Assembly: GCF_024662215.1 (NCBI RefSeq)
Contig: NZ_CP096115.1
Location: 1,798,001 to 1,862,000 of the forward strand
Origin: Methanoplanus endosymbiosus
GTDB lineage: Archaea; Halobacteriota; Methanomicrobia; Methanomicrobiales; Methanomicrobiaceae
Reading direction: 5' to 3'
Length of the DNA stretch: 64,000 nt
Part shown: positions 1-18,884 of the stretch, piece by piece
How the letters are laid out: every line of letters begins with the position of its first letter
Numbering within the stretch: the first letter of the stretch is position 1
Made by a program: the position numbers and the translations under genes
The notes under the pieces: model-generated
What the model saw: only the letters and a program-made list of their open reading frames with translations
Databases searched by the model: none
Told to the model about the DNA's origin: nothing

Positions 1-2
1 AA

Positions 3-458
3 AAGACAGAGACTTCACTGAGGATTGACAGCGAGGAGGGCCTTGTAACTGTCAGTGGTGAGGATGCTGTAAATGTCTTAAATACGACGCAGGTAATACG
101 GGCAATAAATCGTGGTTTCTCACCACAGAGGGCACTTACGCTTCTCGAAGATGAGGATATGATGCTGGACATCATTGATCTTACCGCATACTGTAATACC
201 ACTAAACAGATGGAGAGAATCAGAGGAAGAATAATCGGCAGGGAAGGTAAATCCAGAGAGCAGATTGAGGATATGACCGGAGCCATAATGTCTGTACTTG
301 GAAAGACAGTCGCAATTATCGGCGAAGTTGAACAGGTCAGAAATTCGAGAACAGCTGTTGAGATGCTCATTGAAGGGCTGCCTCACGAGAGTGTCTTCTC
401 ATTCCTTGATAAAAAGAATAAAGAAGCAAAGCAGAATATGCTTGAATATTATTATTAA
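3..458 (+). CDS. KH-domain RNA-binding protein (Pno1/Krr1-like), 5'-truncated by window edge
   Basis: The reading frame is open from base 3 with no start, so the N-terminus lies outside the window; 151 residues remain. A KH-type RNA-binding module is visible around ERIRGRIIGREGKSREQIE, which carries the GxxG loop (GREG), and is followed by a beta strand and the helix EQVRNSRTAVEMLIEG. The region before it (INRGFSPQRALTLLEDE) matches the link between two KH domains in the archaeal homologue of the ribosome-assembly factor Pno1/Dim2. Members of that family take part in small-subunit rRNA maturation; this role is inferred from family. The gene ends 172 bases before hel308, with an AT-rich stretch between. 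The family call is good; a more general KH protein is the alternative. Confidence 0.8.
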   Translation, partial: KTETSLRIDSEEGLVTVSGEDAVNVLNTTQVIRAINRGFSPQRALTLLEDEDMMLDIIDLTAYCNTTKQMERIRGRIIGREGKSREQIEDMTGAIMSVLGKTVAIIGEVEQVRNSRTAVEMLIEGLPHESVFSFLDKKNKEAKQNMLEYYY

Positions 459-630
459 GATTATAGGTGGCAGCATTCTGATGCACCGCATTATAGTCCA
501 GTCTGATAATAAAATATACTTTCCCGGATATGAAGCCAACATTTCCACTCCAGAAAAAACAATTTTTTAAAAGCTTTTTCCTAAATACACCCCCAAATAT
601 AGGATTTAGACAGGAAATGAGGGGGTCTCT

Positions 631-3045
631 TTGAGAATATCCTCATTACCCATAGGTGCTGCTCTTGCTGAGGCATATGAAAAAAGAGGGATCACTGATC
701 TCTATCCTCCGCAGGAGGAATGTGTCAGCAGCGGACTCTTTGAGGGCGCAAACCTTCTGATCTCTATTCCTACTGCCAGCGGAAAGACTCTCGTTGCCGA
801 GATGGCAATGCATCATCATATCTCCGGCAATGGAAAATGCCTCTACGTAGTTCCACTCAGAGCACTTGCAAGCGAAAAATTTGACGAATTTTCAGAACGC
901 GGAGCAAAAATCGGGATTGCAACCGGAGATCTTGACAGAAGGGACGATTATCTCGGAAGAAATGAAATTATTATCGCAACAAGTGAAAAGGTCGATTCAC
1001 TCCTCAGAAATGGTGCGGGGTGGTTAAAATCTGTTTCATGCCTTATTCTTGATGAAGCACATCTCATTGATTCACCTGACAGGGGTGCAACACTTGAGAT
1101 GGTGATAACAAAACTCCGTTATTTAAACCCGGAAATGCAGATTATAGCCCTTACTGCGACTATAGGCAATCCAAAAATTTTTGCAGGATGGCTGAATGCT
1201 ACCCTTGTTAAATCAGAATGGCGGCCGGTTGACCTGAAAGAGGGTATTTTTTACCGGAATTCCATCTTTTTTGGTGAGGAACTAAAAGCGATAACTCCTG
1301 TAACAAAGCATGAGGATGTTAACCTCTGCCTTGACTGTATTAAAGACGGAGGGCAGTGTCTTGTCTTTGTAAATTCAAGGAGAAATGCCGAGAGTTTTGC
1401 AAAGAGAATGGCTCAGGCTCTAAAACCGGAGAAATCTGAACTTCCTGACCTTAAAAAGAAACTTGAAGAGGCTGCTGATACAGAAATGGGTAAAACACTT
1501 GCCGTATGTGCAGGCTATGGCGCGGCTTTTCATCATGCAGGAATGAAGAGGGAACAGAGGGCTATTATTGAGAAAAATTTCCGTAACGGAAATATTAAGG
1601 TTATATCATCAACTCCGACTCTCGCCGCAGGACTTAATCTTCCGGCAAGGCGCGTAGTTATCAGGGATTATCTGAGGTTTAAAGCCGGAGAAGGGATGCA
1701 GGCAATCCCTGTAAGGGAGTACAGGCAGATGGCCGGAAGAGCCGGAAGGCCGCATCTTGATCCTTATGGTGAGGCAGTTTTGATTGCAAAGAGTGAAGAG
1801 GTGGGTGCGGGCCTTTATGAGGAATTTATTGAGGCTCCGGCTGAGGATGTCAAATCAAGGCTTGATGACAATTATATACTCACCGGGCAGGTGCTCTCAC
1901 TCATTGCAACTGGTTTTGTTAAAAATAAGGAGGAACTGGCTGAATTTCTTGACAGGACTTTTTACAGGTATCTTAACAGAAGCATGAAACACCTTGAAGA
2001 GACTCTTGACGAAATTATTGACTTTTTAGTCTCTTCCGGAATGATAACCGTAATTGATGACTGTCTCTCTGCAACTCGATATGGATCACTGGTATCACGG
2101 CTTTATATTAATCCCTACAGCGCTGATATCATTACAACTGAACTGAAATATAGTGACAGGACAGAAGCAGAAATAACTGACGATCTTACGATAACTGAAC
2201 TGAAACATACCAAAGATTCTGAGGAAATAAAGAGTTTTACTGATATCGGACTGCTTCAGATGCTCTGTGTTACTCCGGATATGTACACGCTTTTTGTCCG
2301 GAAAAGTGATATTCCAATGCTTGAGATATTCCTTTATGAGCATGAGGATGAATTGTGGTCCGGAGTATCGTATGATTCAATGGAGGAGGATTTCCGGGTA
2401 TTAAAAACAGCAATGATGCTGAATGACTGGATCTCAGAGGTTAATGAGGAGACTGTCTGCAAGAGATATAATATAGGGCCGGGAGACATTCACAACTCTG
2501 TTGAGTCCATAAACTGGCTTTTATATTCAGCGTCAGGAATTGCTGCGATGATGGCACCTTTACATAAGAAGCATCTCTATGATCTCTCTCTCAGAATGAA
2601 GCACGGGATTAAAAAGGAACTTCTTCCTCTGGTTAAATTCAGGAATATCGGAAGGGTCAGGGCAAGAAGGCTTTATAATAACAATATCAGAACTGTCACT
2701 GATCTCAAAAAAGCCGGTTATGATAAGGTTTCCCTGGTTATAGGACAGAAGAATGCAAAGAGCATCTTTGATGAGATCATAAGGTCTGAAGGAGATGATG
2801 GTAATGTCAATAGAACTCATGATGACGAAATATTTAATAAAAATCTGAAAGAAAAGAAAGTATCTCAAAATAAAGCAGGAGTAAAAAATAATAGGAAAAG
2901 TGAAGTTCAGGAAGCATCGTCCGGTATCTTACAGGCAGGAAATAATTCCGTGAAAGTGGATGATGATTCCGGTAAAGAAGAGAAAAAAGCTGGAAAAAAG
3001 GTTAAAAAGAAGGGATCTACACAATCCTCTCTTTTCAGTTTTTAA
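631..3045 (+). CDS. hel308: ATP-dependent DNA helicase Hel308 with C-terminal PIP-like tail
   Basis: Superfamily 2 helicase of the Hel308/Hjm family, which unwinds lagging strands at stalled forks. At 804 residues it is somewhat longer than usual (about 700-750). Visible motifs are the Q motif near residue 28 (YPPQEE), Walker A TASGKT (48-53), DEAH (141-144), TAT (175-177) and motif VI QMAGRAGRP (about 363-371). A helix-hairpin-helix-like segment (FRNIGRVRARRLY) lies near residue 670. The last 90 residues are charged and low-complexity and end in QSSLFSF, which fits a PCNA-interacting peptide. The start is TTG at 631, chosen because GAGGGGG stands 5-6 bases upstream and homology begins at once. 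cgi121 lies 301 bases downstream on the same strand. Confidence 0.92.
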   Translation: MRISSLPIGAALAEAYEKRGITDLYPPQEECVSSGLFEGANLLISIPTASGKTLVAEMAMHHHISGNGKCLYVVPLRALASEKFDEFSERGAKIGIATGDLDRRDDYLGRNEIIIATSEKVDSLLRNGAGWLKSVSCLILDEAHLIDSPDRGATLEMVITKLRYLNPEMQIIALTATIGNPKIFAGWLNATLVKSEWRPVDLKEGIFYRNSIFFGEELKAITPVTKHEDVNLCLDCIKDGGQCLVFVNSRRNAESFAKRMAQALKPEKSELPDLKKKLEEAADTEMGKTLAVCAGYGAAFHHAGMKREQRAIIEKNFRNGNIKVISSTPTLAAGLNLPARRVVIRDYLRFKAGEGMQAIPVREYRQMAGRAGRPHLDPYGEAVLIAKSEEVGAGLYEEFIEAPAEDVKSRLDDNYILTGQVLSLIATGFVKNKEELAEFLDRTFYRYLNRSMKHLEETLDEIIDFLVSSGMITVIDDCLSATRYGSLVSRLYINPYSADIITTELKYSDRTEAEITDDLTITELKHTKDSEEIKSFTDIGLLQMLCVTPDMYTLFVRKSDIPMLEIFLYEHEDELWSGVSYDSMEEDFRVLKTAMMLNDWISEVNEETVCKRYNIGPGDIHNSVESINWLLYSASGIAAMMAPLHKKHLYDLSLRMKHGIKKELLPLVKFRNIGRVRARRLYNNNIRTVTDLKKAGYDKVSLVIGQKNAKSIFDEIIRSEGDDGNVNRTHDDEIFNKNLKEKKVSQNKAGVKNNRKSEVQEASSGILQAGNNSVKVDDDSGKEEKKAGKKVKKKGSTQSSLFSF

Positions 3046-3346
3046 TATTTGGAATATTTTACTCTCTTAACATTTGCATGCAGGCAAAATAACACACAAT
3101 ATTCAAAATATATTATAGAAACTACCACATTATTCTGTAAATTAGCAGAATGATATTTTATAATAACTACAGATTAAAATCTTAGAAGAGGTCTCAGAAA
3201 TTTGGAGAAGAAGTTTTTCTGCTCCGGAATAATTTCTTTATTCCTGATGACAACTTTATATTAACCAAATGATGTAAAAGATCGTTTTAATTGATTCAGG
3301 TTATATCTTTAAGAATTTGAATTTATGATAATACAGGAGGGCTGAT
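3046..3346. other. AT-rich intergenic region with probable cgi121 promoter
   Basis: This 301-bp stretch holds no convincing reading frame. A TATA-like sequence (TTATATCTTTAAG, starting at 3301) lies about 46 bases before the cgi121 ATG, and a strong Shine-Dalgarno (GGAGGG, 3337-3342) lies 4-5 bases before it. The downstream gene therefore seems to have its own promoter instead of relying only on hel308 readthrough. Confidence 0.5.
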
Positions 3347-4201
3347 ATGAAATATACCATTTTACAGGCAGAAGTTGTTATATCTGACGAAAAGGATTTT
3401 TTAAGTAGTATAAGACAAATTTCAGTCGAAAATGATGTTTATATAACTTTTTTTGATGCAGACTATATTGCGGGGAAGGAACATATTGAATCTGCATTTT
3501 TACATGGTTTAAGAGCATTTTATGAAGGAGATAATATTTCCAGGACACCTGATATGGAGGTTTTGCTGTATGCTGCCGGAACAAGACAGTGTAGTTGCGC
3601 AGTTAAGATTGGCCTTAAAAAGGGAGTGAAAGAGTATTATATCCTCATCTTTGATTTCTTGGAAAGTCAAAAAATTTCGGATGAAAATTTAAGTGAAAAT
3701 TCAGGATTGGAATTATCCTGTTCCAGGCTAAACTCAGGTGCTGACACTAATAAAAAGGATTCTAAATTCAAAAATGAAAATTCGGATATTAATAGTGATA
3801 AAAATTTAAAATTAAAAGAAGAAAAATTTTTGAGTGATGTTCCGGATTTTTTTTTGATGGATGCGATGCCCGACAAAATACCGTTTGTTCAACGATATTT
3901 TCAGGGTTATAATAATTTTTTAGAACAATTTGCAGAAGTTGTGGCTTCTTTAGAAGATATATCCTGTAAATTTCTGGATATTAACCTATTACAGAATAAT
4001 ATATCAGAAAAGAAAAGATCTGATTTGTTTCCGTCAGGAAATTCAGAAATAAAAGGGAATTCAGATACTATGAAAAGCTCTGAAGGAAAATCTGTGAAAG
4101 ATTTTTTTGAGATTACTGAAAAAGAGATTTTAGCTGCTCCGGAGAGAGAGATTGTGGATTTTGTTCTTGAAAGAGTGGCATTACTTGAGATTAGTAAATA
4201 A
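3347..4201 (+). CDS. cgi121: KEOPS complex subunit Cgi121 with large low-complexity insertion
   Basis: Cgi121 is a small subunit of the KEOPS complex, which helps make N6-threonylcarbamoyladenosine at position 37 of ANN-decoding tRNAs. Residues 1-105 carry family hallmarks: a DADYIAGKEHIESAFLHGL segment (38-56) and MEVLLYAAGTRQ (70-81). The end (ITEKEILAAPEREI then LERVALLEIS, 256-283) matches the usual Cgi121 C-terminus. The two parts are separated by about 145 extra residues (105-250), rich in Ser, Asn, Lys and Asp, with one more ordered patch (DVPDFFLMDAMPDKIPFVQRY, about 165-185). Archaeal Cgi121 is normally about 150 residues, so 284 is unusual. The insert keeps the frame open, so it looks like real protein, not decay. 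Start at ATG 3347 follows GGAGGG. Confidence 0.82.
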   Translation: MKYTILQAEVVISDEKDFLSSIRQISVENDVYITFFDADYIAGKEHIESAFLHGLRAFYEGDNISRTPDMEVLLYAAGTRQCSCAVKIGLKKGVKEYYILIFDFLESQKISDENLSENSGLELSCSRLNSGADTNKKDSKFKNENSDINSDKNLKLKEEKFLSDVPDFFLMDAMPDKIPFVQRYFQGYNNFLEQFAEVVASLEDISCKFLDINLLQNNISEKKRSDLFPSGNSEIKGNSDTMKSSEGKSVKDFFEITEKEILAAPEREIVDFVLERVALLEISK

Positions 4202-4670
4202 TTTTTATTTTCATTTTTTTCCTTAGTTTTTCCTGAAAAGTTTAAGATTTTTTTAAAATTTTTTAAAATCTGTTATTTTTTTGCTCCTTACATTTTTTTA
4301 GAGGATGAATTAACAGATATTAGGAACATCAACAGGAGACCTGCAAAAATTTAAATTTTTGCCGGATTTCTTCATTTTTTGATCTTTTTTGAATATTTTT
4401 TTGGTTTTTCAGGTAATTTACATCATATTTTCTTTGAATTTTTTAAATTTTTGTAAATTTTTTTCCTGTTTCTCCACACTTTTGTTTCAAAAAGTAACAA
4501 ATTTGTTATAAAATTTTAAATTTTCTCGGTAATTTACCTGAAATTTTGAAATCTTTTTTTGGGTTAGCTTAAAATTAAAACTCTTAATTTCCATTATTTT
4601 TTTAATTTAAAGCATTTTTAATATTTTTTCTAAAACTTAATGAATAATAGGTGAAAAAAAAATCTGACTC

Positions 4671-4699
4671 TACCCCCACCCCTTTATTTCCTATGGAAC
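4671..4699 (-). promoter_or_regulatory. Origin recognition box-like element (left)
   Basis: Read on the minus strand, this contains GGAAATAAAGGGGTGGGGG, the A-rich then G-string layout of an archaeal ORB bound by Orc1/Cdc6. Bases 4671-4691 are an exact reverse complement of 7363-7383 (21 bp). The dyad half is weaker here (CCATA in place of CCAGT). The G-string points left, away from the AT-rich core. Confidence 0.75.
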
Positions 4700-4910
4700 T
4701 TTTTTTTAGGATATGGGTCGGCGGAAAATACCTGTGGCAAAAAAACAGGTAACAGAAAATAGTCATAAGTAAATATGCAAGTAATAGTATATATAGTACA
4801 GAGATCTTGTTTTAATTTGAACCTAATCTGAATCTGATTGATAACTGAGAAAAAAAATTTAAACTTAAACAAAAATTTTTTAAATTTAAGCTAACGCGTA
4901 ATTATTTTTA

Positions 4911-5190
4911 AATTATAACTTTTAAACGCGAATTATAACTTTAAAACCTGAATTATTAAATTTAAACTTGAATTATAACTTTTAAATGCGAATTATTACT
5001 TTAAAACCTGAATTATTAGATTTAAACTTGAATTATAACTTTTAAATGCGAATTATTACTTTAAAACCTGAATTATTAGATTTAAACTTGAATTATAACT
5101 TTTAAATGCGAATTATTACTTTAAAACCTGAATTATTAGATTTAAACTTGAATTATAACTTTTAAACCTGAATTATTAGATTTAAACGCA
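4911..5190. repeat. Nested 20-bp/60-bp tandem repeat array in the origin
   Basis: Fourteen consecutive units of exactly 20 bp, all beginning AATTA and carrying a TTTAAA or TTAAAA core, are arranged in three alternating types: AATTATAACTTTTAAATGCG, AATTATTACTTTAAAACCTG and AATTATTAGATTTAAACTTG. The three types together form a 60-bp higher-order unit, present in four copies (4911-5150, the first slightly diverged), followed by a hybrid unit (5151-5170) and a last unit (5171-5190). One further 20-bp unit (7100-7119) lies across the IS66 element, so the ancestral array had at least 15 units. No spacers occur, so it is not a CRISPR array. A role as unwinding element or protein-binding iterons is inference. 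Confidence 0.93.
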
Positions 5191-5194
5191 AATT

Positions 5195-7095
5195 GTATCA
5201 TATCCAAAATCGGAGAAATAGGTTAAAAATGAATTTTTATAAGTTGGATGAAATGTATCTGTGTTGACCTACCGGTACATTTGAAAGGTCCTCTTTTGCA
5301 GCAACTGAATTTTTACCCTCTATTTTAAGATCATCCAAGGTTGCTTTCTGGTTTTTGCATGCTATTATCTCAGCAAGTGATTTTTGTCTATGACCATTTA
5401 TGATCAAACCGGCTATATGATCAAAGGGATTTATGTCCAACTTCTTAGCAGTTTTAACAATTGTTAAATTTCTGTCTACAACATTTGTTCCTTTCTCATT
5501 TCTTGTAAATAAGCTTATATCACGATGTCTGACCTGTGCTCGTGCTCCAAGCTCAGCATCATTATTATGAAGAGGGACGTGAGGGTGATCTAAGAATGTG
5601 AGTAAGAAGTCTTTATTCCGGTGTGTCTTCTCAATTCTTAGGTTCAACTCTTTATATTCAGTCTCGCTGTTAAATAACTCATCAAAGTCCTTTCTAATTT
5701 TTAATGCCCACTCTGGAGATGGATTGTCTTTATATGCTCTCATCTCTCTGTAAAATGCCCAAAACCGATCCATGAAATCTTCATGGACTTTTCTCATTAC
5801 AGCAGTTTTAGGTTTTAATTTTTTATAGTGTCTGGCTTCATGAACCCAACATAACTGGTGTTCTTCAGTGATATTGTCGTATTGGGGTGCATCATCTGTA
5901 AGAAGAATTTTTGGAACTGGGTAATCTTTCTGTGATCTGTAATAAGCAATCAATCCAGCCTCAGTAACTCGCTTTTTAAGCGTTTTAAACCCTTCTTGAC
6001 CAAATAACTCAACCAAACTATTTTCTAATTCAAATTCACTAAAGCAAGAGTTGTAAATATTTTCTCTAAGTTTTTTGATCCATTTTTTTGCGGTTCTAAG
6101 ATTGGATAAATGTTCAAAGGCAAACTCATTGAATAGGTACTTGGGTTCTAAAACTTCCATAATGTGCTTAACTATGCTAATTCTATCCTTTTTTGGAGAA
6201 GTTCTAAATGCTGTGAAATTATGGTTTGAAAAGATATGTGTATTATATTGAGTGCCATTTACATTAGCTCCAGTTGTATCTGTCTGGAGGTAATCGGAGG
6301 ACTTTATTCCTTCTTTTAGTATATCTTCCGATTCTTTATCTAAAACCTCATTCTTTTCAGTTAATTTCCTTGAGATTGTAGATTGGGCTATAAAGATACC
6401 ATGGTTATTTAAAAAGGCTCTAATTCCATTTTCACTCATTCCACAAATTGCTTTGCATTCAATAATAAGTGCCTTTATTCCAGGACCAAATTCTCCACCA
6501 TATCCTTGAGGTCGATCAGTTAAGAGATATCTTCCTTCTGAAGGGGAATAATATTTTTCAAGTAAAAACTTTGTATTTCTCGGACGAATTTCAATGTCCT
6601 GTATGATTAATTCAGAAAAGCCTTTAAAAACTGCATCTTTCGGAAGTTTATTTTTGTCAGAGTACCAGATCTTTTCTTCATGGATTTCGATTTTATGATT
6701 ACGTTTTCCTCTGCCTTTATTTGGATTATTTTGATCTGATTTCTCTTTTTTTGAGCGTTCCTCCTCAGTAGAATGATTTTTATTGCCAGAACCCCCTTTT
6801 CTTTTTCCTTTTTTTGCGGCTTCCGGCCTACCCTGTTCACCAATTAGATGATTGTAATCATCTCTGAGTTGAAGATGCTCTTCATATAATTTATCGTATT
6901 TTGCAGATAGTTCCTCAAAGGCTGAGATGAGCAAATATATTATGTCTTTATCCGGAGAATTATCTATCCGATCAGGAGTTATTACGGATTCTAATTCTTT
7001 GAAGATACCATTTGACATAATGTATTCTATATTTTGAATTTATAAGTACAAATTATTATCCATTATCACATTACCTCACATTATGGATATGATAC
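5195..7095 (-). mobile_element. IS66-type insertion sequence, complete with inverted repeats and 8-bp target duplication
   Basis: The ends are the 12-bp perfect terminal inverted repeats GTATCATATCCA (5195-5206) and TGGATATGATAC (7084-7095). They are bordered by an 8-bp direct repeat CGCAAATT (5187-5194 and 7096-7103), the target-duplication length known for IS66. The element is 1901 bp and carries a single transposase gene on the minus strand, without the accessory tnpA/tnpB genes found in many IS66 members; single-gene members are known. Joining the flanks across one copy of the duplication restores an uninterrupted 20-bp repeat series. The intact frame, perfect duplication and matched ends suggest a fairly recent insertion. 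Confidence 0.92.
5237..7018 (-). CDS. IS66-family transposase (TnpC-like)
   Basis: A 593-residue DDE-type transposase. The N-terminus has a short coiled-coil (SAKYDKLYEEHLQLRDDYNHL) and a strongly basic Lys/Arg/Asn linker (about 65-110), the layout of IS66 transposases. Putative catalytic residues are the Asp in YLQTDTTGANVNG, the Asp in ILLTDDAPQYDN and the Glu in HNNDAELGARAQVRHR. The last motif plus the downstream LDINPFDHIAGLI segment matches the IS66 C-terminus. The ATG at 7018 lies 66 bases inside the right terminal repeat. The frame is complete with no frameshift, so it may be active. Subgroup assignment is not firm. Confidence 0.88.
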   Translation of the reverse strand: MSNGIFKELESVITPDRIDNSPDKDIIYLLISAFEELSAKYDKLYEEHLQLRDDYNHLIGEQGRPEAAKKGKRKGGSGNKNHSTEEERSKKEKSDQNNPNKGRGKRNHKIEIHEEKIWYSDKNKLPKDAVFKGFSELIIQDIEIRPRNTKFLLEKYYSPSEGRYLLTDRPQGYGGEFGPGIKALIIECKAICGMSENGIRAFLNNHGIFIAQSTISRKLTEKNEVLDKESEDILKEGIKSSDYLQTDTTGANVNGTQYNTHIFSNHNFTAFRTSPKKDRISIVKHIMEVLEPKYLFNEFAFEHLSNLRTAKKWIKKLRENIYNSCFSEFELENSLVELFGQEGFKTLKKRVTEAGLIAYYRSQKDYPVPKILLTDDAPQYDNITEEHQLCWVHEARHYKKLKPKTAVMRKVHEDFMDRFWAFYREMRAYKDNPSPEWALKIRKDFDELFNSETEYKELNLRIEKTHRNKDFLLTFLDHPHVPLHNNDAELGARAQVRHRDISLFTRNEKGTNVVDRNLTIVKTAKKLDINPFDHIAGLIINGHRQKSLAEIIACKNQKATLDDLKIEGKNSVAAKEDLSNVPVGQHRYISSNL

Positions 7096-7355
7096 CGCAA
7101 ATTTTTAATTTTAAACCTGAACTGTTGCATATAAGGAAGATCCAATATTACTATTAGACCATTATTTTTTGAATATTACATTTTTATTGCGATTTTGAGA
7201 CCCACATATTTAAAAAAACTGATTTAATTATACACTAAATATAAGCTGAATTTTTTTGATTATCACCTGAATTTTTCTAAATTCCACATTATTTTTCTGA
7301 ATTTAATTTATTAAATTTACAAAAACCTGAAAAAACTGCCTAATCTTAATAATTT

Positions 7356-7381
7356 TTCCAGTGGAAATAAAGGGGTGGGGG
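7356..7381 (+). promoter_or_regulatory. Origin recognition box-like element (right, first)
   Basis: The sequence TTCCAGTGGAAATAAAGGGG followed by TGGGGG has the dyad (TTCCAGTGGAA) and G-string of a full archaeal ORB. It is the inverted partner of 4671-4699 and shares an 18-bp core with 11445-11462. Its G-string points toward orc1/cdc6. Confidence 0.82.
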
Positions 7382-7439
7382 TACATTTTTTTCAAAAAAA
7401 TTTCAGAAAAGAGACAAAATTTTCTGAATATTTCAAAAA

Positions 7440-7461
7440 CTCCAGTGGAAACAAAGGGGTT
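7440..7461 (+). promoter_or_regulatory. Origin recognition box-like element (right, second)
   Basis: CTCCAGTGGAAACAAAGGGG followed by TT is the closest match in the window to the published archaeal ORB consensus. It lies 84 bp from the previous box in the same orientation and about 420 bp before the orc1/cdc6 start. Confidence 0.85.
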
Positions 7462-7493
7462 AAATGCTATAGGAATGAGATTAGTAATAACAA

Positions 7494-7510
7494 CCGGTAA
7501 ACTTTACCGG
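7494..7510. promoter_or_regulatory. 17-bp perfect palindrome CCGGTAAA-C-TTTACCGG
   Basis: An 8-bp perfect dyad with a single-base centre lies 33 bp beyond the last ORB-like box in AT-rich DNA. It could be an operator for orc1/cdc6 or an extra origin site. No function can be read from sequence alone. Confidence 0.55.
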
Positions 7511-7878
7511 CAATGATATCTCCGGAATTTTTACAAATTTTTTAGTCCAGGCTGTTCTGAAAAAAATATCAGGAATATGACAGTTTAAGGATTAAAATAC
7601 AATTCCTCTGGATTACAAAATTAATTTCCAGAATCTTATCAGCAATATTACCTATAACATCAGACTATGTAACAGGCGAAAATGTTTATGTCAGGGATGC
7701 GCAGTTTCCTGTTAATAACAATATTTTCATTAAAAAAAGGTAAAAATTATCTGATAACAGATTCTGAATTGAATTATTTAAAAATTTAATTCAAAAACTC
7801 ATTCAAAAACTCAGTTTAAAAATTTAGTTTAAAAATTTAGTTCAGGAAGGATAATTCATAAAATGAGGAGGAACAATA

Positions 7879-9198
7879 TTGACTAACAACCCGGAGAGCA
7901 AAAATGGGAAAAATCCGGGTAATAAAAAATCCGGTTCATCAGGACTTTTTAACAAGTATCTGAATAACAGAGGAATTTTTAGAAACAGAGAAGTACTCAG
8001 GCACTCTTTCAGACCAAATAATCTCCCTCACAGGACACCACAGATTGATTCAATTGCAGCGATTCTTGCTCCATCCATAAGAAATGAAACACCATCAAAT
8101 ATTCTTATTTATGGTAAAACAGGAACAGGAAAAACCGCATGTGTAAAATATGTCGGTGCTGAACTTGAAACTGCGTGCCGTGAACTTGGAAAGAGATGTA
8201 ATGTCATACATCTGAACTGTGAACTCATCGATACTCAGTACCGGGTGCTTGCCCAGATTGCTAACGAAATAGAAAATCTGGACAACAAACCAAATGACAA
8301 GCCGCGTACAAGCATTCCAATGACTGGCTGGCCAACTGATCAGGTCTATGCAGAACTTAAAAATCTGCTGGAATCACTTGGCGGAGTTAATGTAATTGTA
8401 CTTGATGAGATTGACAAACTTGTCAAAAAAAGCGGTGATGAGATTCTTTATAACCTTACAAGGTTTAATGGTGAACTGAGAAATGCAAAGATAAGTATGA
8501 TTGGAATTTCCAATGATTTGCGATTTACCAATTTTCTTGATCCAAGAGTTCTATCGTCCCTTTCAGAAGAGGAACTGGTATTTCCTCCCTATAATGCCCC
8601 TCAGCTCTGTGACATTTTACAGGAAAGGGCAGATGTTGCCTTTGAAGAAGAAGTTTTAGATCATGGATGTATTCCTCTATGCGCTGCACTTGCTGCCCAA
8701 GAACACGGAGATGCAAGAAGAGCGCTTGATCTGTTAAGAATATCCGGGGAACTTGCTGAAAGAGAAAACGCACCTAAAGTATCTGAGGCTCATGTAAAAT
8801 CTGCCCAACAGAAGATTGAAACTGACAGCCTGATTGTCTGTGTCTCTTCACTGCCTACTCAGAGTAAAGCCGTTCTTTATGCAATGCTGATTTTATCCGA
8901 TCTTAACCGGCCTGTTTTCACCACCGGAGAAGTGGCTCAGGTTTACAGGGATGTTGCACAGGCACTTGATGTAGATGTTTTAACTCACAGAAGAATTACA
9001 GATCTGATCTCAGAACTTACCATGCTTGGTGTAATCAATTCAAGGGTAGTATCAAGAGGAAGGTACGGCAGAACCAAGGAGATGTGGTTTGGAACCGGAA
9101 CTTCCGGAATACGGGAAACACTTTCAAAAGACGAGAGATTTGAGGAAGAAAGACTTCATCAGATTGATATAGGCAGATTCAGAACCCTTTTCAGATAA
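7879..9198 (+). CDS. orc1/cdc6: Orc1/Cdc6 replication initiator
   Basis: A 439-residue AAA+ initiator that binds origin recognition boxes and loads the MCM helicase. Walker A is GKTGTGKT (79-86), Walker B VIVLDEID (about 171-178), sensor 1 GISND, and sensor 2 lies in HGDARRALDLL. The C-terminal 120 residues form the winged-helix DNA-binding domain (GEVAQVYRDVAQ through HRRITDLISELTMLGVI). The first 35 residues are a Gly/Asn/Lys-rich tail. TTG at 7879 is taken as start because GAGGAGG ends 7-8 bases upstream and no ATG lies near. It lies directly beside the candidate origin, the usual arrangement for an archaeal initiator and its own origin. Confidence 0.95.
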   Translation: MTNNPESKNGKNPGNKKSGSSGLFNKYLNNRGIFRNREVLRHSFRPNNLPHRTPQIDSIAAILAPSIRNETPSNILIYGKTGTGKTACVKYVGAELETACRELGKRCNVIHLNCELIDTQYRVLAQIANEIENLDNKPNDKPRTSIPMTGWPTDQVYAELKNLLESLGGVNVIVLDEIDKLVKKSGDEILYNLTRFNGELRNAKISMIGISNDLRFTNFLDPRVLSSLSEEELVFPPYNAPQLCDILQERADVAFEEEVLDHGCIPLCAALAAQEHGDARRALDLLRISGELAERENAPKVSEAHVKSAQQKIETDSLIVCVSSLPTQSKAVLYAMLILSDLNRPVFTTGEVAQVYRDVAQALDVDVLTHRRITDLISELTMLGVINSRVVSRGRYGRTKEMWFGTGTSGIRETLSKDERFEEERLHQIDIGRFRTLFR

Positions 9199-9369
9199 AC
9201 TCTCTCTTTAAATAAAAAAACCCCTTCCCGGATAAAGAAATAGTTTTTTTCTGCTCCGGTTTTAATTTCAGTTTCAGTTTTCGATTTTTCTGTTACCTTC
9301 TTTTATCAGGAGTTATGCGGAACAAAAATCAGAACCAATAGCATCTATTAATCAGTATTAAAACAAAAA

Positions 9370-9395
9370 ACTCCGTTGACAAATATTGTCGGAGT
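9370..9395. promoter_or_regulatory. Dyad overlapping the Shine-Dalgarno of the Lrp-type gene
   Basis: ACTCCG and CGGAGT flank an inner palindrome (GACAAATATTGTC), giving an almost continuous inverted repeat that ends 6 bases before the ATG at 9402. The right arm contains the GGAG Shine-Dalgarno (9391-9394), so an mRNA hairpin would pair it with CTCC. It could equally be an operator for Lrp autoregulation. The dyad is directly visible; the function is inferred. Confidence 0.6.
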
Positions 9396-9401
9396 CAGAT
9401 A

Positions 9402-9893
9402 ATGGATGAAAATGACAGGATGATATTATCCATACTTGAGGAAAACTGTAAAATTTCAGAGCAGGTCCTTGCAGATATGACAAATCTCAGCCGGGAAGAG
9501 GTCATATCACGAATAAAGAAGCTTGAGGAAGACGGAATAATTAAAAATTATGTAGCGTGCATAGACTGGGAAAAAGCCGGAAACGGAATAGTGGCAGCTA
9601 TAATTGAACTTAAAGTCTCACCGGAGAAGGATTACGGATATGACAAAATCGCCGAAAAAATCTCAAAATTCCGGCAGGTAAAATCCCTTAGGCTTGTAAG
9701 CGGAGCGTATGATCTTGAAATTCTTGTAACCGGCAGGGATATACACGAAATAGCAAGATTTGTATCAGGACAGATTGCACCACTTGAAAATATCAAAGAG
9801 ACAGGGACAATTCTTATAATGAAAACTTATAAGGAGAACGGCCAGCTTTACTTTGAGAAAAAACAGGTTGAAAGGCTCCCGTATTCATTTTAA
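9402..9893 (+). CDS. Lrp/AsnC-family transcriptional regulator
   Basis: A 163-residue protein with an N-terminal AsnC-type helix-turn-helix (DENDRMILSILEENCKISEQ to EVISRIKKLEEDGIIKNY, residues 2-49). A RAM/ligand-binding domain follows (AAIIELKVSPEKDYGYDKIA to MKTYKEN), including the RLVSGAYDLEILVTG strand-loop that binds amino-acid effectors in the family. Lrp proteins form dimers or octamers and sense amino acids. The next gene is an aminotransferase on the same strand, 281 bases away, and is a plausible target. The start ATG 9402 follows GGAG, which is buried in a dyad, suggesting autoregulation. Confidence 0.88.
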   Translation: MDENDRMILSILEENCKISEQVLADMTNLSREEVISRIKKLEEDGIIKNYVACIDWEKAGNGIVAAIIELKVSPEKDYGYDKIAEKISKFRQVKSLRLVSGAYDLEILVTGRDIHEIARFVSGQIAPLENIKETGTILIMKTYKENGQLYFEKKQVERLPYSF

Positions 9894-10174
9894 CTGTCTT
9901 AAAACGTTTAATGTCCGTTAAACCGTATTAGTCAGCTAAATTCAGATTAGTCAGTTGAGCCTGTATTAGTGTTAAATCTTTGACATTATCAACTAAATCT
10001 GAAAGTGTGAAAATGTTAAATTATAAGTAAATGCTGAAAAATCCTGGAAAATCCACGCTCATAAATTTATGGCAGACATATTTTTGGGTTTTAAACTTTA
10101 ATCAGGGTTTAATAAATATGATAAATAATACCACATAAACATCAGGGATAAGAGAAAAACCGGAGAAATAAATT

Positions 10175-11332
10175 ATGAGAGACTTTCGCTCAGCCAGAGT
10201 ACGCGAGATACCGCCTTCAGGGATAAGAAAATTCTTTGACATCGCCCAGGAGATGGAGGATGTGATATCACTTGGTGTCGGAGAACCGGACTATGATACA
10301 CCATGGAATGTAAGGGAAGCAGCAATCAGTTCAATTGAGAAAGGTTATACAGCGTACACCTCAAACAGCGGCTTAAATGAACTCAGAGATGAGATATCAG
10401 TCTACCAGAAGGAGAGGTTTGGTGTTGATTACAATCCTAAAAATGAGGTACTGGTCACCACCGGAGCATCAGAGGCACTTGATATAACAATAAGAACGGT
10501 TGTCAATCCTGGTGATGAGGTGCTTGTCGCAGAACCGGCATACATAGCATACTGTTCAGGAGTCATACTGTCCGGAGGCGTGCCGGTATATGTACCATGC
10601 CCTGCAAAGGAGAATTTCAGGCTTACACCTGACAGCCTTATGGAGAAGATAACTCCAAAATCAAAGGCATTACTCTGTAATTTCCCGAACAACCCTTCCG
10701 GAGGTGTGATGACTGTGGATGACTACAGGGCAATAGCAGATATCATTGTTGATCATGATCTCCTCCTCATCTCAGATGAGATCTACAATGAGATAACCTA
10801 TGAAGGAATGCCTTCATCTGCCGCCTGTGTTGAGGAACTTCGTGAGAGGACAGTGATAATAAACGGTTTTTCAAAGGCGTATTCTATGACCGGATGGCGC
10901 ATAGGATATATCTGCGCTCCGGAAGAGATCGCGGCAGCTGCACTGAAGATCCACCAGTATGTAATGCTCTCTGCACCTACTATGTCCCAGTATGCAGCTA
11001 TTGAAGCAGTTAAAAATGGCTGGGACGCAAGAAATGAGATGGTCAGGGAGTATAACATAAGGCGCAACCTTTTCGTAAACGGAATGAGGCGTGCCGGACT
11101 TGAATGCCATATGCCCAAAGGTGCAATATATGCTTTCCCGTCTGTTGAGTCCACAGGACTGTCAGATCAGGAATTTGCAGAACGCCTCTTAAAAGAAAAA
11201 CATATAGCCGTAGTTCCGGGCAGCATATTTGGCCCTTCCGGCACAAACCATCTCAGATGCTGTTATGCAATTTCAAGGGATAATCTTGTAACAGCGATTG
11301 AGAGAATCGAAGAGTTCGTGAATGAACTTTAG
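10175..11332 (+). CDS. Class I/II PLP-dependent aminotransferase (aspartate/aromatic type)
   Basis: A 385-residue fold-type I aminotransferase. Visible signatures are GVGEPDYDTPWNV near residue 33, the NFPNNPSGGVM segment near 170, SDEIYNEITYEG near 200, and the PLP-lysine motif GFSKAYSMTGWRIGY (Lys at about 234). Near the C-terminus RCCYAISRDNL carries the substrate-carboxylate arginine. This subfamily covers aspartate, alanine and aromatic aminotransferases; the exact substrate cannot be read here. An Lrp-type gene lies upstream, supporting an amino-acid role. A TATA-like stretch (TTTAATAAATATGATAAATAA, about 10107-10127) lies upstream of the start at 10175. Family call firm, substrate uncertain. 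Confidence 0.9.
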   Translation: MRDFRSARVREIPPSGIRKFFDIAQEMEDVISLGVGEPDYDTPWNVREAAISSIEKGYTAYTSNSGLNELRDEISVYQKERFGVDYNPKNEVLVTTGASEALDITIRTVVNPGDEVLVAEPAYIAYCSGVILSGGVPVYVPCPAKENFRLTPDSLMEKITPKSKALLCNFPNNPSGGVMTVDDYRAIADIIVDHDLLLISDEIYNEITYEGMPSSAACVEELRERTVIINGFSKAYSMTGWRIGYICAPEEIAAAALKIHQYVMLSAPTMSQYAAIEAVKNGWDARNEMVREYNIRRNLFVNGMRRAGLECHMPKGAIYAFPSVESTGLSDQEFAERLLKEKHIAVVPGSIFGPSGTNHLRCCYAISRDNLVTAIERIEEFVNEL

Positions 11333-11444
11333 GCTTTATAACTGAGACTTAAAAACGCTAAATGAATTTTAAAATAGACAGAGGATTTTGTAACGGACTA
11401 TCTCTGCAAACTCCGGTACTCACAGGGGATACAATCATCTGCGG

Positions 11445-11465
11445 CACCCCTTTATTTCCACTCGA
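11445..11465 (-). promoter_or_regulatory. Distal origin recognition box-like element
   Basis: On the minus strand this reads AGTGGAAATAAAGGGGTG, identical over 18 bp to 7360-7377 in the origin. It lies between the aminotransferase and pdxS, about 2.2 kb beyond the end of orc1/cdc6, with its G-string pointing back toward the origin. A chance 18-bp match is very unlikely in this window. Confidence 0.72.
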
Positions 11466-11614
11466 AATCGAGAATAAAATGCCCTTATTGGGATAATGTT
11501 GGTTATTTAAAAATATTTTTTTTAATTATAATATTAAAAACCTCTAAATGCCATTTGGGTGAGTCAGTGATGACTACCCTATATTTATTTCATTGCATGT
11601 TCAAACTAAATGCC

Positions 11615-12511
11615 ATGAAATTAGAAGACCTCAGGTTTGGAACCGAGCTTTTAAAGAGAGGGTTTGCATCTATGCAGAAGGGTGGCGTTATTATGGACGT
11701 TGTCAATGCAGAACAGGCAGAAATTGCTGAATCTTCCGGAGCAATTGCAGTGATGGCACTGGAACGTGTCCCGTCCGATATCAGAAAAGCCGGCGGCGTT
11801 GCAAGAATGGCAGATGTGGCAAAGATCGAAGAGATAATTGAAGCCGTATCTATCCCTGTGATGGGCAAGGCGCGTATCGGTCACTTTGTAGAAGCACAGG
11901 TTCTTGAAGCGATCGGTGTGGATATGATCGATGAGAGCGAGGTTTTAACACCAGCCGATGAAGAGTTTCATATTGACAAGCAGAAATTTACAGTGCCATT
12001 TGTCTGCGGCGCAAGAAATCTTGGAGAAGCCTGCCGGAGAATTGCCGAAGGCGCAGCTATGATCAGAACCAAAGGCGAGGCCGGAACAGGCAATGTTGTT
12101 GAGGCAGTGCGCCATATGAGATCAATATCAGGTTCTATCAGGCAGCTTGAAGGCATGAATGACCAGGAGATTGCAATGTATGCAAGAAAGATCGAAGCGC
12201 CCTTTGCAATTGTTAAGGAATGCGCAACACTTGGCAGGCTTCCGGTTGTGAACTTCTCAGCAGGCGGTATTGCGACACCTTCAGACGCAGCAATGATGAT
12301 GCAGCTTGGTTGTGACGGCGTGTTTGTAGGATCAGGCATATTCAAATCAGAGACCCCTGAAGTAATGGCCCGTGCGATCGTTGAAGCGGTGAACAATTTT
12401 GAAGACCCGCTTGCTATTGCAGGTGCAAGCCGGAATCTTGGTGAAGCAATGCCCGGCCTTGATGTTCACACATTAAGCGATGAAGAGGTGCTCTCAACAC
12501 GTGGCAATTAA
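11615..12511 (+). CDS. pdxS: Pyridoxal 5'-phosphate synthase subunit PdxS
   Basis: The synthase subunit of the glutamine-dependent PLP pathway, condensing ribose 5-phosphate, glyceraldehyde 3-phosphate and ammonia in a TIM barrel. Visible are [20 protein letters not shown] at the N-terminus, [11 protein letters not shown] with the first Schiff-base lysine, and the phosphate-binding [20 protein letters not shown] to FVGSGIF near the C-terminus. ATG 11615 (MKLEDLRFG) is chosen as start because family proteins begin there; the frame is open upstream to TTG 11555, but that adds 20 unmatched residues. A TATA-like sequence (TTAATTATAATATTAAA, 11522-11538) lies about 80 bp upstream. The product is 298 residues, the normal length. 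It overlaps pdxT by 11 bases. Confidence 0.95.
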
Positions 12512-13097
12512 GATCGGTGTTCTGGCTCTTCAGGGAGATGTAGCTGAACATATCCATGCATTTGAAGATGCAATCACTGAGTCAGGCCTTTTTAAAGACT
12601 ATAATGTATTTGCCTTAAAGAAAGCAGAAGAGATACCGTCATGTGATGCAATAGCCATCCCCGGCGGAGAATCAACAACAATTTCAAGGCTCATTGATAA
12701 AAATCACATGAGAGAAGAGTTTGAAAGTTTTAGCGGCGGAATTTTTGCAACCTGCGCCGGTATGGTGCTATGCGCAGGATCTGTCGATGATGATAGATTA
12801 AAGCCACTCTCTCTTATTGATATCAAAGTCGGAAGAAATGCCTTTGGAAGGCAGAAAGATTCCTTTGAAGCTGAAATAGAAATTAAAGGATATAAAGAGC
12901 CTTACAGGGCAATATTCATTAGAGCACCTGTTGTAGAATCAGCAGGTGCGGGTGTTGAAATTCTCGCCGAGATTGATCAGGGCATTGTTGCCGTACGATC
13001 AGGTAAACATATGGCGATCTCATTCCATCCGGAACTGACAGGTGACTTCAGGCTTCACATTGATTTTATTAAAAACCTTAAACTAACGGAAGAATAA
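12501..13097 (+). CDS. pdxT: Pyridoxal 5'-phosphate synthase glutaminase subunit PdxT
   Basis: A class I glutamine amidotransferase that supplies ammonia to PdxS. The triad is visible as the Cys in [11 protein letters not shown] and His-Glu in [22 protein letters not shown] carries the family GGES motif. GTG 12501 gives [14 protein letters not shown], matching the usual beginning, and has GAGGTG (12484-12489) upstream; the in-frame ATG 12480 is possible but would add seven residues. The gene overlaps pdxS, indicating translational coupling and a two-gene operon. The product is 198 residues, normal for the family. No other PLP synthesis gene is present. Confidence 0.93.
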
Positions 13098-13228
13098 TTC
13101 CGATTTATGGAATAATAATTCCATTAAACAGAAATTTCCGGTTAAAAAAACCGGAACAAATATTTATATCAGCTTTTTTATTTCAATACCGGAAGTTTTG
13201 TCAGATGGAATTTACCCTTATGAATTTT

Positions 13229-13343
13229 CTGCTAAATATCTGCCGGATTCCTCTGACTAATATCTCTCTCTGATTTTTCTGTCTGATTTTTCTGTCTGAT
13301 CTCTCTGCTAAATATCTGCCGGATTCCTCTGACTAATATCTCT
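13229..13343. repeat. 39-bp direct repeat pair in the pdxT-purA gap
   Basis: The 449-bp gap 13098-13546 has no gene. It carries two identical 39-bp copies beginning CTGCTAAATATCTGCCGG at 13229 and 13305, 76 bp apart, separated by TCTGTCTGATTTT-type slippage-prone repeats. A second diverged pair (CAGAATGCAGTATTT at about 13391 and 13437) lies closer to purA. This looks like local tandem duplication; no regulatory role can be assigned. Confidence 0.75.
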
Positions 13344-13546
13344 GCTGAATTTTTACTACCTTTTCCGGCTGAATTATCTCTATTTTCCAGCAGAATGCAG
13401 TATTTAAATTTGTGATTTTACCTGTCCTGAAATATGCAGAATGCAGTATTTGAATCTGTTATGTCATCCGTTCAAAGATCTGCGGAATGCGGGTTATCAT
13501 CAAAAGGTTCATCAGGGTATATAACCCCATCTTTAATGAAAAATAA

Positions 13547-14557
13547 ATGAGTTGTACAATAATCGTTGGCGGTTTTTTTGGTGATGAAGGCAAGGGCAAA
13601 ATTGTTGCCCATGTTGCACATAAAGATAAACCCTCAATCATATCACGCGGCGGTGTCGGCCCGAATGCAGGTCACACAGTTCAGGTAGGCGAAAAGGAAT
13701 ACGGTGTAAGGATGATCCCTTCAGGATTTGTATTCCCCGAAGCTAAATTATGCATTGGAAGTGGTGTTCTCGTAAACCCTGAGGTATTCAAAAGCGAAGT
13801 GGATATGGTCGGAGTCGGAGACAGAATTTTTATCGATGGAAGATGCAGTATCATTGAGGAAGAGCATATCCGTCAGGATAAAGCCAATGAGCATCTTTCA
13901 AAGACCATCGGTTCAACCGGAACAGGATGCGGCCCTGCAAATGTTGCAAGGGTAAACAGGGTTGCAAAACAGGCAAAGGATATTCCTGAACTTAAACCTT
14001 ATCTGGCAGATGTCTCACTTGAGATCAATGAAGCTATTGCAAGGGGCGAAAATGTCCTTCTTGAAGGAACGCAGGGCTTTGGAATCTCCCTTTACTTTGG
14101 CACATATCCTTTTGTCACAAGCAAAGATACATCTGCCTCACAGATTGCGGCAGATAATGGTGTAGGCCCTACAATGATCGATGATGTCATTGTTGTTTTT
14201 AAGGCATATCCGACAAGAGTCGGTGAGGGACCTTTTGGAACTGAGATGACCCGTGATGAGTCACACGAACTTGGTATTCAGGAATTTGGAACCGTAACAC
14301 ACCGCGAGAGGAGAATCGGTGTCTGGGACGGCAAGATGGCACGCTATTCCGCAATGATTAACGGATGTACAATTGCAGCCATAACAGGAATTGATCACGT
14401 GGATCCTGAATGCTTTGGCGCAACAGAATATGAGCAGCTTACACCAAAAGCACTTGAATTCCTTAAACAGGCTGAAGAGGATATTGGTGTTCCTGTAAAG
14501 CTCATATCAACCGGCCCTGAGATGACTCAGATCATTGATATAAGGGACAGGAAATAA
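13547..14557 (+). CDS. purA: Adenylosuccinate synthetase
   Basis: It joins IMP and aspartate with GTP to give adenylosuccinate, the first step from IMP to AMP. At 336 residues it is the short archaeal form, about 90 shorter than bacterial PurA. GDEGKGK (12-18) is the GTP-binding loop, and the IMP/aspartate-site segments [23 protein letters not shown] and [12 protein letters not shown] are present. Start ATG 13547 leads directly into the first strand ([14 protein letters not shown]). The downstream Trm112-like gene begins 20 bases after the stop, so the two may be cotranscribed. Confidence 0.95.
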
Positions 14558-14576
14558 ATTTTTTTGAGGAATTAAA

Positions 14577-14786
14577 ATGAAGATGTCAACCTATGAGATA
14601 CTCTGCTGCCCTGTATGCAAGGGAGATCTTACTCTTAAGACTGATAAGAAGGTAATTCTTGAGAGTGGTGAGGAAGATGTAATTGAAGGTACTCTCAGGT
14701 GCGGGAGCTGTGGTGTTGATTATCCAATCAGTGAAGGAATACCGGACCTTCTTCCAAGGGACAGGGATGGAATAGTTTCCGGCTGA
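14577..14786 (+). CDS. Trm112-like zinc-ribbon protein
   Basis: A 69-residue protein with two CxxC pairs (CCPVC near residue 10; CGSC near residue 42) and the closing motif YPISEGIPDLLP, typical of Trm112/YcaR-type small proteins. Trm112 activates several RNA and protein methyltransferases by binding them; the partner here is unknown. ATG 14577 follows TTGAGGAATT at a good distance; a second ATG at 14583 is possible. It sits 20 bases after purA. The length fits the family. Confidence 0.85.
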   Translation: MKMSTYEILCCPVCKGDLTLKTDKKVILESGEEDVIEGTLRCGSCGVDYPISEGIPDLLPRDRDGIVSG

Positions 14787-14890
14787 AGGGTGTGCAATAC
14801 TAAACATACGGGCTACTGTTGTTAAATGCAGAGGCAGAGATATTTCAGATGCTGATATACGGATCAAAATAGTAAATAAAGGCAGTAATT

Positions 14891-15409
14891 ATGGTTGAAT
14901 TCGAGGTAATTATAAACAAGTCCGGAATTAATTCAATAGAAGCACCTGAAGAAGTAGATCTAGAGAACGGTGAAAATATTGTCTTAAATCTGGTCAATAA
15001 CGGAACACCTCTTCATCTTACAGTATCTGCTGTAAACGGCAGAAAATTTACCCCGTTTTTGCATGAAAATTTATTTCTGGAAAATAAAGTCATACTTAAA
15101 ATTCCTGTAATGTCTGATGCGCCAAAAGGCACCTTTAGAATTGAGATTATTACAGGTTACGGTACTGTACGTTATGGCATTGCCATTAATGTGACGGACA
15201 GGGCGATTGAAATTCCGGAGGAGATAGAAGAGATTCCTGAACCTGAGGATCATACTGCTCTTTATATGAAAGCCGGATTTACAGCTCTTATTGGTGCAGG
15301 GTGGGTCTTATATATCTTCGGACTTTATGCTCCGGGAGTTGTCCCCGGCATTATACCGATAATTCTCATAACTGCCGCGGCATACATCGGATGGCAATAC
15401 CGGCCCTGA
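14891..15409 (+). CDS. Membrane-anchored beta-domain protein, function unknown
   Basis: A 172-residue protein I cannot assign. Residues 1-110 alternate hydrophobic and polar residues like an immunoglobulin-type beta sandwich (NIVLNLVNNGTPLHLTVSAV; FRIEIITGYGTVRYGIAINV). A Pro/Glu-rich hinge (EIPEEIEEIPEPED) leads into two C-terminal hydrophobic segments (about 128-170). There is no signal peptide, so the beta domain is probably cytoplasmic unless the membrane pair inverts. The gene overlaps cbiB by 19 bases, suggesting cotranslation; no cobalamin-related motif is seen. Confidence 0.7.
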   Translation: MVEFEVIINKSGINSIEAPEEVDLENGENIVLNLVNNGTPLHLTVSAVNGRKFTPFLHENLFLENKVILKIPVMSDAPKGTFRIEIITGYGTVRYGIAINVTDRAIEIPEEIEEIPEPEDHTALYMKAGFTALIGAGWVLYIFGLYAPGVVPGIIPIILITAAAYIGWQYRP

Positions 15410-16314
15410 TTATCTGGCTGTCACTCTTATTTGACAGAGTTGCAGGTGACCCTCCAAACAGGTACCACCCGGTTGCCTGGCTTGGCAGATTTATCAGTTT
15501 ATGGGGAAGACCTGAGATATATCCGGCATGTTTACAGAGATTATCTGGTCTTATCTTCTCTCTGGTAACTGCGCTCTTATTTGCACTGCCGTTTTTTCTC
15601 TTTGATCTCTTTACATACGGAATAATTGCTGTCATTGCAGGTGCTGCGCTGTTAAAGATCTGCCTGGCCCTGCGCTGCCTTGAAGAGCATGTTGAATCTG
15701 TCACTGAGGCAGTGCTAATGGGGGACGGACGCAGTGAGGCAGGTATGCTTGTATCGAGAAATACCGCTTCGCTCTCTGAAGAGGAACTGCTCTCAGCTGC
15801 ATATGAATCAATGGCTGAAAATCTGGTTGATTCTGTAGTCTCGCCTCTCTTTTATTACACAGTTGCCGGACTTGGAGGCGCAGCATTCTTCAGGGCGTAC
15901 AATACCATGGATGCAATGCTTGGCTATAAGGATGAGAGGAGGTATCTTGGCTGGTTTCCGGCAAGGATGGATGACCTGCTTAATTTTATACCGGCAAGGA
16001 TTGCAGGATTATCACTTATAATTTACTTCTTTTTTAATGGAAGCTTAAAGGAAGCGTGGCTCTGCATGAGGCGTGATGCAAAAAAGAGGCCGGGGATAAA
16101 CGGTGGCATCCCTATGGCACTTATTGCAGGCGGCACAGGAATCCGGTTTGAAAAACCCGGCTGCTATACCATTGGGGACCCTGTCAACACTCTTTCTGAA
16201 TCCGGAAAAGATATTGTAACAGCTGTCAGGTATGCAACACTGATCTCGGCCCTTATATTTTCAGCTGTAATTGTACTGTCAGGAGATATTGTGCTGAATA
16301 TTTTATTCAGATGA
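15391..16314 (+). CDS. cbiB: Adenosylcobinamide-phosphate synthase CbiB
   Basis: A membrane enzyme that attaches the aminopropanol arm to adenosylcobyric acid in cobalamin synthesis. Signatures are DPPNRYHPVAWLGRFIS near the N-terminus, SLSEEELLSAAYESMAENLVD, YKDERRYLGWFPARMDDLLN and the C-terminal FEKPGCYTIGD. Several hydrophobic helices are present. ATG 15391 is chosen (MAIPALIIWLSLLFDRV) because family homology begins there; an upstream in-frame ATG would run far into the preceding gene. The product is 307 residues, the normal size. Other cobalamin genes are absent nearby. The next gene is convergent. Confidence 0.92.
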   Translation: MAIPALIIWLSLLFDRVAGDPPNRYHPVAWLGRFISLWGRPEIYPACLQRLSGLIFSLVTALLFALPFFLFDLFTYGIIAVIAGAALLKICLALRCLEEHVESVTEAVLMGDGRSEAGMLVSRNTASLSEEELLSAAYESMAENLVDSVVSPLFYYTVAGLGGAAFFRAYNTMDAMLGYKDERRYLGWFPARMDDLLNFIPARIAGLSLIIYFFFNGSLKEAWLCMRRDAKKRPGINGGIPMALIAGGTGIRFEKPGCYTIGDPVNTLSESGKDIVTAVRYATLISALIFSAVIVLSGDIVLNILFR

Positions 16315-16342
16315 TATGTCTGATTCTCTTTTAACGGCTAAA

Positions 16343-17161: not shown

Positions 17162-17315
17162 CTGTCTGTTTAAGTTTGATCTTTGACGCAATAATATTTG
17201 CCTGAAATAACTGTGAAAAGTTATGCAATATAATATTTTTGGTGCATTAACGCATATCAGAAAGAAGAACAATTAAGTATATTGGAGGATTATAATATCA
17301 TAATCTGGTGTAATT

Positions 17316-18494: not shown

Positions 18495-18503
18495 GGGGCA
18501 ATT

Positions 18504-18884
18504 ATGAAAGAATTCTCTATTTTGATTGTTGAGGATGATGCGATAATATCAATGGATATTGAGCAGAGGGTGCAGAAGCTTGGCCATAAAGTTGTCGGAG
18601 TCGTTGACCGTGCGGAGAAGGCCTTCCGTACAATTATCGAAAAAAAGCCGGACCTGATTCTGATGGATATCAATCTCAAGGGTGAGATGGACGGAATTTC
18701 AATTGCTGACAGGCTGTACAAGGAAATGAACATCAGGGTTATCTACATTACAGCATATTCTGACGCAGGTATGAAGGAAAGGGCAGAAAAAACATATCCT
18801 CTGGGTTATATTATCAAACCAATCCGTGAAAATGAACTTAACAGAGTGCTGGAAGCTGTAGCATCTGAACTGTCAGGAAATTAG
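18504..18884 (+). CDS. Single-domain response regulator (receiver only)
   Basis: A 126-residue CheY-like receiver. The acidic pair DD is in LIVEDDAIIS (residues 10-11), the phospho-acceptor Asp in PDLILMDINLKG (about 55), Thr/Ser in VIYITAYSD and Lys in GYIIKPIRENE. There is no output domain; the ILMDINL sequence and IKPIRE ending are typical of receivers paired with HisKA_2 kinases. It directly follows the kinase gene and is its likely partner. Output must pass through another protein or back to the HTH-bearing kinase, which is speculation. Confidence 0.92.
   Translation: MKEFSILIVEDDAIISMDIEQRVQKLGHKVVGVVDRAEKAFRTIIEKKPDLILMDINLKGEMDGISIADRLYKEMNIRVIYITAYSDAGMKERAEKTYPLGYIIKPIRENELNRVLEAVASELSGN

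Follow-up and report, generated by a model that had tools for sequence, protein, structure and literature searches.

Archaeal unwinding elements are usually described merely as "AT-rich". What is already known from archaea, as outlined in part of a review (PMC4010727), is the ORB origin, in which Orc1/Cdc6 boxes stand around an AT-rich unwinding region. Already known from bacteria, according to passages of PMC5043065, are AT-rich unwinding repeats, namely the repeated 13-mers of E. coli oriC and plasmid RK2, and plasmid iterons, which are direct repeats of roughly 17–22 bp, usually in helical phase. The locus in Methanoplanus endosymbiosus described here shares with the archaeal ORB-type origins its divergent Methanomicrobia-type ORBs, an adjoining orc1/cdc6 gene and a very AT-rich stretch. 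It departs from them in that its AT-rich stretch takes the form of a regular 20/60-bp tandem array and in that the ORB bracket has an IS66 element within it. As in oriC and RK2, AT-rich direct repeats lie where the duplex would be expected to open, beside the boxes for the initiator; here, however, the units are 20 bp long and present in 14–15 copies, the initiator system is archaeal, and the repeat sequence is not conserved even in the sister species. The likeness to iterons lies in the direct repeats of about 20 bp near helical phase (1.90 turns per unit), while no Rep-type initiator was identified here and the units do not resemble ORBs.

The array lies in a 64-kb window, by which we mean the whole stretch of DNA that was analysed. 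An earlier note on this DNA had claimed fourteen 20-bp units of three types forming a 60-bp super-repeat, each unit starting with AATTA and centred on a TTTAAA-type core. Repeat finding and unit comparison confirmed this: the 14 units are each exactly 20 bp long with zero indels, the types alternate as A-B-C, and all of the units (14/14) have AATTA at the start and TTTAAA within. Tandem Repeats Finder reported the array with a period of 60 bp (4911–5186; 4.6 copies, 96% match, 0% indels, score 494) and with a period of 20 bp (4911–5187; 13.9 copies), and found no second array of comparable strength in the window. The A-B-C order holds without exception across units 1–12. Three 60-mers, at 4971, 5031 and 5091, have the same sequence, from which the first 60-mer (4911) departs at 3 positions. 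Unit 13, an A/B hybrid, combines a type A front with a type B tail, equivalent to the loss of 20 bp from the super-repeat, and unit 14 is of type C with the tail CGCA. The three identical 60-mers and the hybrid unit show recent duplication and deletion in unit steps. Since only about ten substitutions are present across the units, the absence of indels is uninformative. The search for the 20-mer elsewhere in the genome, which the earlier note had set, placed the array at a single site of the 3.16-Mb genome when a 321-bp query covering it was used. A degenerate 20-mer pattern found nothing above control elsewhere in the genome, but it also missed the array itself, so the 321-bp query is the better test. 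A further degenerate tandem repeat cluster (periods 13/26/37 and 46 bp) occupies window positions 13224–13490, between the ORFs 12480–13097 and 13547–14557.

Table 1. Features of the predicted origin region, in window coordinates
Feature	Position	Strand	Basis
Left ORB, TCCATAGGAAATAAAGGGGT + G-string, outward-pointing	4678..4697	-	Consensus PMC4164010, 2–3 departures
Non-coding block, M. limicola-like, with hairpin ACCTGTggcaaaaaaACAGGT and TATA-like tatatatag	4698..4810		By eye; in aligned flank 4217–4855
Array, 14 × 20 bp, types A-B-C, 60-bp super-repeat	4911..5190		Repeat finding and unit alignment
Left IS target duplication CGCAAATT	5187..5194		8 bp
15th unit, first 4 bases (AATT)	5191..5194		Flank joining
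IS66-family insertion sequence	5195..7095	-	Transposase domain, inverted repeats, target duplication
21-bp imperfect terminal inverted repeats of IS	5195–5215 / 7075–7095		End comparison
IS66 transposase	5237..7018	-	DDE_Tnp_IS66 domain
Right IS target duplication CGCAAATT	7096..7103		8 bp
15th unit, remainder TTTAATTTTAAACCTG	7104..7119		Flank joining
Right ORB 1 with G-string	7357..7376	+	ORB motif match
Right ORB 2	7441..7460	+	ORB motif match
orc1/cdc6 initiator gene	7879..9198	+	ORF and domain

The features around the array are collected in Table 1. The Methanomicrobia ORB consensus, as given in part of PMC4164010, is TCCA[GC]T[GT]GAAA[CT][AG]A[AT]GGGGT. The ORBs are divergent around the array, beside orc1/cdc6, and their G-strings face outward. 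Upstream lie genes for an archaeal Ski2/Hel308-like helicase (631–3045) and a CGI-121-family protein (3347–4201). GC and TA skews, noisy and taken from sampled stretches, are mostly negative below 1.68 Mb (1.15–1.56 Mb) and take positive values beyond about 1.80 Mb, the site of the window. The chromosome's remaining orc1/cdc6 locus, at about 1.759 Mb, was considered as a second origin and rejected, as it has neither ORB nor array. Because of the ORBs, the cdc6 neighbour, the skew and the lack of ORB and array at the second orc1/cdc6 locus, the array locus is, by prediction only, the best candidate chromosomal origin. The placement of the array "inside the origin" is a prediction drawn from the ORB bracket, the adjoining cdc6 gene and the noisy skew. 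The non-coding block next to the left ORB has a very similar counterpart in Methanoplanus limicola (locus L122, about 6182–6300), and its TATA-like box faces the array; it is possibly a promoter or a small RNA. A search for RNA families in window positions 1–20000 returned none.

The array extends past 5190 into a 15th unit, which is split by an insertion sequence absent from the earlier note's account. The features of the IS66 family are present, namely a DDE transposase with the DDE_Tnp_IS66 domain, terminal inverted repeats and an 8-bp target duplication, and nothing notable sets the element apart from the family except its position inside a predicted origin. Full near-identical copies number nine in the genome (the window copy and eight further ones), which suggests recent transposition. 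The ends are common to all eight copies compared, and 8-bp target duplications are present in 7/8. At one copy (L119) the target duplications do not match, which suggests a rearrangement there. When the flanks of the window copy are joined, an intact 15th unit is obtained (AATTTTTAATTTTAAACCTG), and the element therefore landed in a pre-existing array. That the array is part of the insertion sequence was ruled out, since the ends are fixed by eight copies. A mobile origin of the array was also rejected, given no plasmid match (the low-complexity filter of BLAST may hide one) and no match to viral contigs. The insertion displaced the right ORBs by 1.9 kb. It is a natural spacing mutant in which the ORB bracket is 1.9 kb longer, so the tolerance of ORB spacing is directly testable.

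The Cdc6 proteins of M. endosymbiosus and its sister species M. limicola are 95% identical. The M. limicola origin aligns to window positions 4217–4855 (68%) and 7307–7814 (76%), and between these two blocks nothing is alignable. M. limicola keeps the ORBs and flanks, and its arrays (11 bp × 9.4 and 127 bp × 5.9) are unrelated in sequence to the 20/60-bp array; neither a relative of the 20-bp unit nor the insertion sequence was found in its origin. The comparison with related genomes, set beforehand, therefore went against the array as such: the exact array is absent from the ORB-bracketed homologous predicted origin of M. limicola, and its letters are not conserved. Arrays of other sequence fill the same bracket in M. 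limicola and in many relatives. The segment between the initiator boxes has thus been replaced fully between sister species while the boxes were retained, and such turnover helps to tell the required from the changeable parts of an archaeal origin. Intergenic arrays with periods of 20, 30 and 40 bp also occur in M. limicola at locus L161 (1672–1920, 4069–4272 and 5276–5414). Because similar arrays occupy ordinary intergenic sites of this species far from the origin, arrays are not exclusive to origins.

A low-stability AT-rich segment is present between the ORBs. By nearest-neighbour energies, the array contains the 200-bp stability minimum of the 464 kb sampled (400 kb of the genome plus the 64-kb window, about 460 kb), none of the 459,800 windows being lower (0/459,800). 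The array is also lowest at 280 bp in the 400-kb sample, and at 100 bp it is matched by a T-rich block (4564–4663) just beyond the left ORB. A superhelical-opening model, which is a rough one-bubble approximation, spread opening over 4200–5100 with the largest share at 4900–5000. In 48/55 related origins the 100-bp minimum of stability falls within the ORB bracket; in both Methanoplanus loci it falls just outside. Arrays of relatives are less stable than the remaining bracket in only 11/20 cases. The suggestion in the earlier note that the array may serve duplex unwinding finds support in the calculated stability (the least stable 200 bp sampled) and in the placement between divergent ORBs.

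We lean towards reading the array as a minisatellite, young and AT-rich, that occupies the unwinding segment bounded by the divergent ORBs of the predicted chromosomal origin. The 20-bp unit was probably duplicated in tandem, its copies diverged into three types, and a 60-bp block was then duplicated. Tandem duplication in this lineage would have produced a 280-bp AT-rich block that should open more easily than the other sampled stretches. Orc1/Cdc6 bound at the flanking ORBs would distort the DNA, and the very unstable array would be the preferred place of strand opening for MCM loading. If selection acts at all, its probable targets are composition and distance rather than the unit sequence; the array is probably easily melted spacer DNA that turns over fast, not a conserved control code. 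We infer that the strands would open at the array in vivo and that tandem order may matter beyond AT-richness.

Arrays are widespread in the order. A divergent ORB bracket is recognisable in 70/76 sampled species of Methanomicrobiales. When an array was counted at a score of 60 or more (at least one per bracket), 34/70 brackets contained a tandem array and about half were without one. Arrays cover 13.4% of the bases in the 70 brackets versus 2.6% of sampled intergenic DNA, a comparison that is not fully matched across the order because the intergenic control (800 kb, six genomes) comes from the window's own family only. For the six family genomes alone, bracket coverage is 28% versus 2.6% intergenic, and four of the six drive the difference. 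Among segments of at least 300 bp, a strong array was present in 10/50 versus 6/77, which is marginal (Fisher p = 0.056). Array sequence varies by lineage: it is AT-rich in Methanoplanus, mixed or pyrimidine-rich in Methanoculleus, where many arrays are not AT-rich, and GATC-rich in Methanofollis. Within a mostly open-access literature, represented in part, no paper was found that describes tandem arrays recurring and rapidly changing in Methanomicrobiales origins. We regard the order-wide enrichment of lineage-specific arrays as a more interesting result than the array itself, and the 70 brackets form a ready comparison panel.

The arrays may instead be neutral minisatellites, raised by slippage or recombination near the origin and functionless, with a low stability that mirrors the AT-rich parent spacer. 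Such an account agrees with the change of both sequence and period between sister species, with the arrays at non-origin intergenic sites, with the half of ORB brackets that lack arrays, and with the periods across many origins, which fit random integers (null fraction 0.22, maximum R 0.31, with the 10–11-bp scan included). It sits less well with the enriched coverage of ORB brackets over intergenic DNA and with an array more unstable than other sampled stretches of equal length, neither of which proves selection. We judge this account unlikely, yet give it real weight.

A functional role wider than unwinding was also considered, in which the ORB brackets of Methanomicrobiales are platforms for lineage-specific repeated motifs that help to regulate initiation, a different factor reading each of them. 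The 20/60-bp AATTA/TTTAAA units here, the GATC clusters of Methanofollis and the other arrays of Methanoculleus and elsewhere would be examples, even though they share no conserved sequence or period. We consider it improbable.

Each 20-bp unit could alternatively bind an initiator, a histone or another factor, in the manner of an iteron, the spacing aligning the bound copies. This would suit the absence of indels from the fourteen units, all of which carry AATTA and TTTAAA, the usual helical phasing of bacterial plasmid iterons (in the relevant part of PMC5043065) and the one histone gene of the genome. Set against it are the sister origin, which lacks a related unit, the dissimilarity of the units to ORBs on inspection, the small number of substitutions (about ten), at which a lack of indels says little, and the failure to find a candidate binding protein; the chromatin protein MC1 was not found in the genome. 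A protein array of this kind is possible but unsupported, and we hold it to be very doubtful. Averaged over origins, autocorrelation peaks near 10–11, 20–22 and 40–43 bp; a genome-wide 10–11-bp periodicity is already known, as part of PMC7537859 reports. The phase-locked index at 10.5 bp showed no excess in origins over intergenic controls (p = 0.31), and a larger origin set gave p of about 0.02 by a Rayleigh approximation. A phasing p of about 0.018 leaned on related Methanoculleus arrays. Helical phasing common to origins was rejected, being not significant against intergenic controls or random integer periods.

The least probable reading by far is a static curve of phased AT cores wrapping the origin, for although the array reaches the 99.5th percentile of window curvature over 120 bp, it falls to the 92nd over 270 bp, with about one-fifth to one-third of the curvature of the bent controls, equally strong bending is seen in 15% of periodic shuffles, and the strongest curvature of the window lies elsewhere. 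The De Santis parameters, which pass the GA4T4C/GT4A4C control, give the array a value of 116 over 270 bp, against 372 for GA4T4C (bent) and 90 for GT4A4C (straight). The intrinsic bending proposed earlier was not borne out in any strong form, the predicted curvature being only moderate. At 10.5 bp per turn, 20 bp make 1.90 turns and the units therefore drift around the helix; the AT cores lie on "one face of the helix" locally but not along the whole array. In both 120- and 270-bp windows, the strongest De Santis curvature was at about 4282–4460, a T-tract-rich stretch outside the left ORB.

Two further observations concern other genomes. In one of them (G018), AT-rich arrays of 10 bp × 14.5 and 20 bp × 3.7 lie near a second orc1/cdc6 gene (L181, 1080–1338). 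In Methanofollis, a Dam-like D12 methyltransferase was present in only 3/6 genomes searched. All sampled Methanofollis species (8/8; L212–L219) have 30–68 GATC sites per ORB bracket upstream of cdc6, mostly 6–11 bp apart. The density in the bracket is 50–79 per kb, or 13–20 times the mononucleotide expectation, versus 9–18 per kb in the flank, and these clusters recall the enterobacterial oriC with Dam/SeqA.
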